From NCBI GenBank assembly GCA_025356695.1, contig JANXSE010000065.1:1-27219 (forward strand): a stretch of 27,219 bases of DNA, given 5' to 3'. A program made the translations under genes and the position numbers. Shown here piece after piece: positions 737 through 26,324 of the stretch. The notes beneath the pieces were generated by a model that was not told the DNA's origin, did no database searches, and saw nothing but the letters and a program-made list of their open reading frames with translations. Within the stretch, counting starts at the first letter, position 1. Every line of letters starts with the position of its first letter. This DNA is from Betaproteobacteria bacterium (GTDB lineage: Bacteria; Pseudomonadota; Gammaproteobacteria; Burkholderiales; SG8-41).

Positions 737-976
737 GAGTGCCAATGGTTTTGGCTTCCCCTTGAGAGCCGCCGAGCAGCACAGCCGCGCCGGGGGAAGT
801 CGGCGAGCACTGTCTGAGCCCTCGCAGTTTTATCGCGAGGGCGAGTTGCGCAGCCGCCCGGCGCGGCGAGCAGCGCAGGGGAGTCCGCAGGACCGGCGAA
901 CCAGGGGCCGCTTCTTTTGGTTACTTTTCTTGGCGGTTCAAGAAAAGTAACCAGCCGCCGGGCTGCCCCCGGCGAA
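737..976 (+). repeat. 240-bp dispersed structured repeat, copy 1
   Basis: This block reappears in reverse orientation at 6343-6582. By hand alignment both copies are 240 bp, without net gaps, at about 92% identity (19 differences). Internal structure includes a long-range stem (785-794 with 857-866), a hairpin 818-825/835-842 and a strong hairpin 918-932/939-953. Four of the differences in each long-stem arm pair with changes in the opposite arm. It fills most of the 428-bp gap between two convergent genes; the small ORF across it (762-950) looks spurious. Similar sequence is, to my knowledge, scattered in other proteobacterial genomes, but I could not search. Confidence 0.85.
918..953. terminator. 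Long perfect hairpin inside repeat copy 1
   Basis: A 15-bp perfect inverted repeat (918-932 with 939-953) has a 6-nt loop. The arms carry TTTTCTT and AAGAAAA, so either strand could form a stable stem. There is no U-tract directly after the stem, so classical intrinsic termination is unproven. It lies between the convergent NHL gene and acyl-CoA ligase, where it could end transcription from both sides. The same hairpin with a 13-bp stem is at 6368-6399. Confidence 0.45.
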
Positions 977-987
977 GTTGAAGCACA

Positions 988-6324: not shown

Positions 6325-6342
6325 TGCACACCCGAAACTAAG

Positions 6343-6582
6343 TTGGCCGGGGGTAGCCCGGCAGCTAGTTACTTTTCTTGAACCGCCAAGAAAAGTAACC
6401 AAAAGAAGCGGCCCCTGGTTCGCCGGTCCTTCGGACTGCCCTGCGCTGCTCGACACATCGGGCGGCTGCGCAACTCGCCCTCGCGATAAAACTGCGAGGG
6501 CTCAGACAGTGCTCGCCGACTTCCCCCGATGTGCCTGCGCTGCTCGGCGACTCTCAAGGGGAAACAAAAACCGTTGGCACTC
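6343..6582 (-). repeat. 240-bp dispersed structured repeat, copy 2 (inverted)
   Basis: The reverse complement of the block at 737-976. It keeps the long-range stem (6453-6462 with 6525-6534), but with different base pairs from copy 1. The local hairpin 6477-6484/6494-6501 is unchanged, and the strong hairpin (6368-6380/6387-6399) is slightly shorter. It occupies most of the gap between the alpha/beta hydrolase and the Bug gene, ending 18 bp from the Bug start. The remaining 6583-6674 carries only a decayed 'gtaga..gaaacccatca' palindrome fragment. Confidence 0.85.
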
Positions 6583-14979: not shown

Positions 14980-15055
14980 TGGTGCCGCTGCCCGGATTCG
15001 AACTGGGGACCTTCGCATTACGAATGCGCTGCTCTACCAACTGAGCTACAGCGGC
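14980..15055 (-). tRNA. tRNA-Thr (anticodon CGT)
   Basis: A 76-nt cloverleaf on the minus strand including an encoded CCA. The acceptor GCCGCTG pairs perfectly with CAGCGGC, the D arm is GCTCAGTTGGTAGAGC, and the anticodon loop TTCGTAA gives CGT. The T arm TTCGAAT loop has one A-C mismatch in its stem. The anticodon region matches the E. coli thrW type, a known integration target. A terminator follows at 14945-14971, and a -10 box lies upstream at 15101-15106. The first 34 nt recur at 26279-26312. Confidence 0.95.
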
Positions 15056-15067
15056 GATACCGGTTTG
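15022..15067 (-). repeat. Direct repeat, left copy (5' half of tRNA-Thr)
   Basis: 46 nt identical to 26279-26324 in the same orientation, covering tRNA nucleotides 1-34 and 12 nt of leader. The identity stops inside the anticodon loop. A second identical block, 15085-15111, matches 26337-26363; the spacer between blocks differs (17 versus 12 nt). This is a candidate attachment-site half of an island. Confidence 0.75.
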
Positions 15068-26278: not shown

Positions 26279-26312
26279 GAATGCGCTGCTCTACCAACTG
26301 AGCTACAGCGGC
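26279..26312 (-). pseudogene. Truncated tRNA-Thr (nucleotides 1-34 only)
   Basis: Exact copy of the first 34 nt of the tRNA-Thr at 14980-15055, in the same orientation; homology ends inside the anticodon loop. With 12 nt of leader it forms the 46-bp direct repeat 26279-26324. No 3' half follows, so it cannot give a tRNA. It is a candidate right-hand island boundary within the otherwise gene-free gap 26043-26394. Confidence 0.8.
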
Positions 26313-26324
26313 GATACCGGTTTG
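26279..26324 (-). repeat. Direct repeat, right copy (5' half of tRNA-Thr)
   Basis: 46 nt identical to 15022-15067, in the same orientation. Confidence 0.75.

Follow-up and report, generated by a model that had tools for sequence, protein, structure and literature searches.

The stretch of DNA analysed here, referred to as the window, comprises 27,219 nucleotides of contig JANXSE010000065.1 from a Betaproteobacteria bacterium, and carries two copies of a 240-bp repeat in inverted orientation, at 737-976 on the plus strand and at 6343-6582 on the minus strand. A preliminary description had counted 19 differences between the copies and had placed eight of them in two separated arms, as compensatory changes of a long stem. 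A base-by-base recount gave exactly 19 of 240, of which eight lie inside the arms 785-794 and 857-866 and form four paired changes, with pairing kept in all four. Three of these are the Watson-Crick switches read earlier (787-864 and 789-862 from G-C to A-T, 790-861 from C-G to T-A), and the fourth, 785-866, passes from C-G to a G-T wobble, as claimed. The view that the local hairpins are unchanged stands for the apical hairpin 818-842, which is without difference, but not for the 3' hairpins, which are changed at 952, 956, 965 and 974. The pair 952-965 is an additional C-G to T-A switch that had been overlooked, and it covaries across the family copies. When 19 changes were placed at random, at least two double-changed, still-paired positions appeared in the named stem in 57 of 200,000 trials, against the four observed; this control is specific to the named stem and leaves the choice of that stem uncorrected, which the family data make good.

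The homology is slightly longer than 240 bp (repeat arms of 265 nt, 89%), and positions 756-981 are the extent common to copy 1 and a very similar copy in another genome, G001. Covariance model R1 matches copy 1 at 769-880 (123.6 bits) and copy 2 at 6439-6550 (124.2 bits). A comparison of the whole window with Rfam (4227 models) returned only a tRNA and no family for the repeat, and copy 1 at E ≤10 gave three chance-level matches, all below the gathering cut-offs. A protein reading of the repeat was rejected, as the ORF at 715-1026 belongs to no Pfam family and has five database relatives, and the length of the apical hairpin varies irrespective of frame. The features of the two copies are collected in Table 1.

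Table 1. Half-units and parts of the proposed fold in the two copies of the window
Feature	Positions	Strand	Basis
Copy 1, one half-unit, single copy	756..981	+	97.3% identity over 756-981 to the unrelated-site copy in G001
Copy 2, one half-unit, single copy	6338..6563	-	Model R1 match; other halves or remnants at the site in relatives
Freely varying rod stem, copy 1, arms 784-794 with 857-867	784..867	+	Covariation
Counterpart rod stem, copy 2, letters differ and pairing maintained	6452..6535	-	Comparison of the two copies
Conserved core GTCGGCGAGCACTGTCTGAGC / GCGAGTTGCGCAGCCGCC around apical hairpin 818-842, copy 1	799..857	+	Invariant columns; core pair C-G or G-C
Small hairpin P2 (GTCC GCA GGAC), copy 1	883..893	+	Seen by eye here and in many copies
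Proposed closing helix P0, copy 1, 758-761 with 904-907	758..907	+	Inferred from the sequences
3' hairpin P3, copy 1, 919-932 with 939-952	907..952	+	Loop covaries with upstream segment near 907-911
P4, copy 1, 952-955 with 962-965 and 957-961 with 969-973	952..973	+	Outer stem covaries; second stem seen in the sequence

Two further repeats are present in the window. Immediately 3' of copy 1, a palindromic stretch at 985-1075 (of the TAGGGTAG ... CTACCCTA type) resembles a separate dispersed repeat, and comparable ones lie next to copies in other genomes. An identical 46-nt stretch occurs at 15022-15067 and 26279-26324, 11.3 kb apart, and covers part of a tRNA-Thr gene (14980-15055), as if bounding an inserted island with putative sugar-nucleotide genes, their roles being read from the ORFs.

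The covariation was followed in an alignment built from 126 core matches, 21 of which were dropped as cut off or without a second core; 61 of the 105 left remained after removal of near-duplicates. Alignment A1 holds 46 of these 61, with 15 excluded for longer or differently arranged arms, and A2 holds 45, the copy in L044 carrying an arm insert. Across the 45 diverse copies 96.9% of 1389 cells are paired, both-sided change is found in 14 of 31 pairs, and 167 double-change cells are observed as against 49.1 in shuffles and 22-44 with the partner slid. A tree-aware null was also applied: a tree was built, the changes of each column were redistributed over its branches in 200 simulations, and E ≤0.05 was reached by 6 of 4950 column pairs. 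Five of the six are drawn pairs and the sixth (56-84) would extend the apical hairpin, the remaining drawn pairs individually missing E 0.05. The variable stem displays 107 distinct 7-nt arm sequences in 144 copies. The core covaries as well; among 200 distinct matches, many of which could not be parsed, the two commonest matched types are GAGCAC with GTTGCG, found in 88, and GAGGAC with GTTCCG, found in 36, and a single match is crossed.

The 3' hairpins behave similarly. The P3 loop matches the segment 5' of the hairpin by at least 5 bp in 67 of 111 hairpins (shuffled mean 21.8, maximum 32). Pairing of the P4 outer stem is kept in 79% and 71% of the 52 sequences (27% in shuffles), its support coming from the 32 sequences with common spacing, of which 31 (inner) and 30 (outer) are paired. 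Among 14 sequences with the longer 3-nt spacing only 5 (inner) and 2 (outer) are paired, with 11 A-C outer cells, so either the chosen register or the P4 helix fails there. As read from the letters of copy 1, the two P4 stems overlap, and either a pseudoknot or alternative pairings are proposed. Each half folds into a long rod, in which the internal loops are fixed and one stem varies freely, followed by a small hairpin and two 3' hairpins, the loops of which pair elsewhere. A few outer variants (L010, L031 and some others) have longer arms or different core letters, e.g. GGCGAAAG / TTCTTTCGCC, and suggest additional subfamilies that are weakly scored by model R1.

The preliminary description had attributed the paired changes to selection on the folded form, with independence of the two arms in a larger alignment as the outcome that would speak against it. 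The larger alignment was made and the changes in the two arms were not independent; the many-copy covariation under the tree-aware null, the strand bias given below and the P3 loop pairing all favour the attribution. It is strongly supported that one strand of the repeat is kept folded by selection, changes in the stem being matched on the opposite side.

The folding strand is evident from the mispaired cells. In 144 copies with 1152 arm cells, Watson-Crick pairs fill 990 of the cells, G-T or T-G wobbles fill 80, and A-C or C-A mismatches account for only 4, whereas re-dealing of the 3' arms gives 41.8% Watson-Crick, 12.7% G-T and 8.7% A-C. G-A and G-G cells similarly number 64, as against 8 C-T and C-C cells. 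The count covers 144 of 146 copies with the register picked for best pairing, yet one offset is common to 135 of the 146; the p-value of 2e-19 for the wobble bias is indicative only, because the copies are related. A cruciform in double-stranded DNA, or mere copying of one arm onto the other, would give equal G-T and A-C, and the strand oriented as in copy 1 is therefore the strand selected as a single-stranded fold. Template switching within the hairpin, with the covariation as its by-product and without selection, would yield paired changes without broken pairs, and copying between halves may occur at L278, where the halves contain the same insertion in mirror order. The reading was rejected on the wobble asymmetry, since processes on double-stranded DNA should leave both mismatches alike, and a conserved core pair is also switched, from C-G to G-C; it is considered very improbable.

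The same tolerance of wobbles and of G-A and G-G mismatches on one strand only would be expected of a transcribed, protein-bound structured non-coding RNA, for example the RNA component of a mobile system that is guided or templated by RNA. The compensatory change would then mirror the function of the RNA, and the DNA would spread along with it. The layout of the 240 nt, in which internal loops are conserved and two hairpins are loop-paired, is also like that of structured RNAs. Against this, promoters are not in excess 5' of the copies (score ≥9 in 6 of 142 upstream stretches and in 8 of 142 after shuffling), the copies favour neither strand with respect to adjacent genes, and Rfam gives no match. 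The half-unit as such an RNA is therefore a possible but rather unlikely explanation.

The copies occur predominantly as divergent pairs. Among neighbouring copies less than 700 bp apart, 49 of 50 pairs are divergent, and in ten genomes searched whole, 97 matches form 38 neighbour pairs within 1.5 kb, of which 35 are divergent, three same-strand and none convergent. Eleven measured units are 527-702 bp long. A full unit would consist of two half-units of about 240 nt, arranged divergently around a short spacer that sometimes holds a small gene, and the folding strand of each half would be the one read outwards from the spacer. The two halves are often unlike. When halves were grouped by a clustering forced to two clusters, all 17 dimers of G090, G162, G133 and G199 combine one half from each group, with 71-89% identity within the dimer and 82-99% to the best match in another dimer; mixed-group dimers account for 4 of 7 in G054 and 1 of 5 in G171. 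Selection against perfect palindromes, which is discussed for REP heterodimers in PMC3733652, and distinct left and right ends would explain the unlike halves equally well. In the L278 dimer, one and the same sequence, in mirror order, interrupts the outer parts of the two halves at a matching point, which hints at copying between halves.

Relatives keep different halves or remnants at both sites of the window, so that the window copies look like lone survivors of dimers. At the site orthologous to that of copy 2, a truncated half in the same orientation and of a different core type is present in G308, the opposite half together with the final hairpin of its partner in G001 and G003, and a final hairpin alone in G002; at the site orthologous to that of copy 1, the opposite half is present in G308. 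Dimers would decay to single halves through loss of one side.

That the repeat might be a transposable hairpin had been offered as one of two possibilities, and mobility is supported by near-identical copies at unrelated sites, a filled and empty site, and variable copy number. Copy 1 shares 97.3% identity over 226 nt with the G001 copy while the flanks are unmatched; the orthologous blocks common to the window and G001 reach only 78-84%. Two dimers at different sites of G090 share 98.5% identity along 471 nt, and at one site the element is present in L072 and L093 and absent in L029. In the gap between ribF and ileS in one family, presence or absence was judged by eye from the sequence at 30 loci (L180-L209), giving a dimer in 12, hairpin remnants in 2, none in 14 and an uninformative result in 2. 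Orthologous sites are common to several species, and many copies are therefore old. The short ribF-ileS gap is a hotspot in this family, with another ORF in 5 of the 30 loci, presumably encoding an ORF6N-type protein. In L171, L029, L083, L065, L094 and L097 other short palindromic sequences are inserted within element copies, so the element would seem to act as a landing place for smaller repeats.

The placement of the copies was determined with a crude custom gene caller, which left 85 of 93 units outside its gene calls. The 58 units that could be classified comprise 35 between co-directional genes, 20 between convergent genes and only 3 between divergent ones. This distribution, together with the very stable hairpins formed, is also what cis-acting RNA hairpins at gene ends would show if they stabilised mRNA or served as terminators, a role that has been proposed for REPs. 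However, single halves between co-directional genes are on the same strand in 10 cases and on the opposite strand in 13, where a strand-specific fold should favour one strand, and a dimer offers both strands to any transcript. A cis-acting role is thus improbable, and the placement is more in keeping with a mobile element that is tolerated than with an mRNA signal acting in cis.

The explanation preferred here, with a probability near an even chance, is that both repeats are halves of a non-autonomous betaproteobacterial mobile element that is moved as folded single-stranded DNA, in a REPIN-like manner. It builds on the covarying fold and its strand bias, the divergent pairing, the similar copies at unrelated sites, the filled and empty site and the mostly intergenic placement. 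A protein acting in trans would recognise the unit and move it while it is folded as single-stranded DNA, much as for REPINs; the dimer would move as one unit, and selection for the fold would operate via mobility. The 12 of 17 units with both ends located showed neither a target-site duplication nor a defined insertion site, the flanking direct repeats being 0-7 nt long and patternless. A RAYT encoded next to the element was rejected, as none of 20 Y1_Tnp loci (from 42 Y1_Tnp matches in 12 element-bearing genomes) carries an adjoining copy, and 15 of 56 element-bearing genomes, element-rich ones included, are without any Y1_Tnp. Y1_Tnp is nevertheless found in 41 of 56 element genomes against 82 of 144 others (p = 0.036), a weak association that lends some weight to a RAYT working from another place in the genome. 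The lack of an adjoining Y1/RAYT and of target duplication, together with the old shared sites, counts against the preferred explanation, as do the size of the element and its two loop-paired hairpins, unlike any REP, and the strong G-T tolerance, which suits RNA at least as well as DNA.

Genes are enclosed between the halves at nine distinct loci (L014/L164, L096, L098, L160, L161, L162, L163, L256 and L257), where the divergent pairs are 830-1845 bp apart, eight of them at 830-1183 and the ninth at 1845. The enclosed ORFs are small and mutually unrelated. The L098 ORF encodes a DUF4357 protein whose GIY-YIG match falls short of the cut-off, and its PADLOC match to PDC-S14 (E 1.7e-103) makes it a phage-defence candidate. 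L162 encodes an 8xMP protein, above the cut-off, and L257 gives a weak PD-(D/E)XK match (E = 1.6e-06); the other enclosed ORFs have no family above its cut-off. As the loci are few and five same-strand pairs lie within 1.3 kb, gene carriage is treated as a lead only.

If the structured divergent halves were the ends of a true transposon that normally holds one gene, the short-spacer dimers would be internal deletions. Six of the 35 divergent pairs of the ten genomes are spaced 830-1183 bp apart, and the nine loci with their PDC-S14, 8xMP and weak PD-(D/E)XK products would agree with it. Yet the 10 proteins scanned from the nine loci include no recognisable recombinase, same-strand pairs occur at similar distances (three and two in two data sets), and the three pairs that flank genes in G171 consist of nearly identical halves (93-97%), which may be separate insertions. 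Such a transposon is quite improbable. A novel class of mobile element is a broader reading, and a doubtful one. It would have two divergent single-strand folds of ~240 nt as its ends, a free stem, loop-paired 3' hairpins and no target duplication, and would sometimes carry one orphan gene, including at least one phage-defence candidate.

Among known systems, REP/REPIN repeats are the closest in organisation to the folded, REPIN-like element preferred here. Both are dispersed, mostly intergenic, strand-specific hairpins (for REP/REPIN, PMC3733652, PMC3116915, PMC2817692) that form head-to-head inverted dimers, remnant singletons and dimers with unlike partners, and the element likewise displays no target duplication. 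REP/REPIN sequences carry GTAG or CGTC tags and go with RAYT (TnpA-REP) transposases. REP/REPIN sequences are about 20-40 nt with one imperfect hairpin, whereas the half-unit has ~240 nt and several helices; they have GTAG or CGTC at the foot of the hairpin, whereas the element is without an invariant tag and its half begins near TTCCCC, as read from alignment A1; and a RAYT flanked by the repeat defines them, whereas the element adjoins no Y1_Tnp locus in the set above. Compensatory change over many copies and an occasional gene in the spacer further set the element apart from REPs. Because size, tag and flanking RAYT are three REPIN-defining features that the element does not share, it is not filed as a REPIN member and is called here a novel form among dispersed palindromic, REPIN-like repeats.

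TIRtrons/TIRYT, described (PMC3733652) as RAYT-like genes between long terminal inverted repeats, are similar as long inverted-repeat families in a dimer arrangement but differ in that the element flanks none of those Y1_Tnp loci. The Beta-proteobacterial repeat element (BRE) of Bordetella (PMC3110155) is 75-91 bp long, often tandem and overlapping detected transcripts; like the element it is multi-copy, mostly intergenic and from Betaproteobacteria. It is a possible relative that its published description sets apart by size and tandem layout. MITEs (PMC10969869) share short non-coding sequences, inverted ends and intergenic scatter, but the element is without target duplication (12 units) and has a strand-specific covarying fold. 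No autonomous parent with element ends was seen in the examined loci, for which the systematic search was that for Y1_Tnp. Integron attC sites are recognised as a single-stranded fold in which the letters of the stem are free and pairing is kept; the element resembles them in this respect but does not lie in cassette arrays. The open-licence PMC literature yielded no description of the element, BRE being the nearest, and short element sequences used as queries there gave unrelated matches only.

The family is widespread. A 21-nt core pattern gave 99 matching stretches in a collection of bacterial genome contigs; the titles of 80 of these name 58 betaproteobacterial sequences, 11 assigned only to Proteobacteria, 10 from one Chitinophaga-labelled bin and 1 from an Elusimicrobia-labelled bin. 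Betaproteobacterial taxa among the matches listed include Sulfuricella, Gallionella, Thiobacillus, Dechloromonas, Hydrogenophilus and Burkholderiales, among others; Sulfuricella sp. T08 and Aquabacterium sp. A7-Y are carriers available in culture. By genome placement the Chitinophaga-labelled bin (G002) falls in the same family as G001, so its label is wrong, and the Elusimicrobia-labelled match is presumed to be contamination. BLAST found 4 to 39 matches per genome in 20 genomes selected for carrying the core pattern. Model R1 found matches in 56 of 200 genomes of the order, at 1 to 16 per genome, these copy numbers being lower bounds as 19 candidates were scored in each genome. Copy 1 gave no match in plasmid and phage records, nor did a 27-nt core pattern in viral contigs.

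These observations reveal a covarying family that roughly one in four of the genomes sampled from a large bacterial order carries, and that is without an Rfam entry. The wobble asymmetry provides a clean sequence-based test for the folding strand, which is applicable to other repeats. An open question on REP-like DNA is also made testable, namely whether large folds spread without a RAYT and whether such ends carry genes. If the element does represent a new class, the free stem would be a pure shape requirement of a strand-specific recombinase or of an RNA-protein machine.
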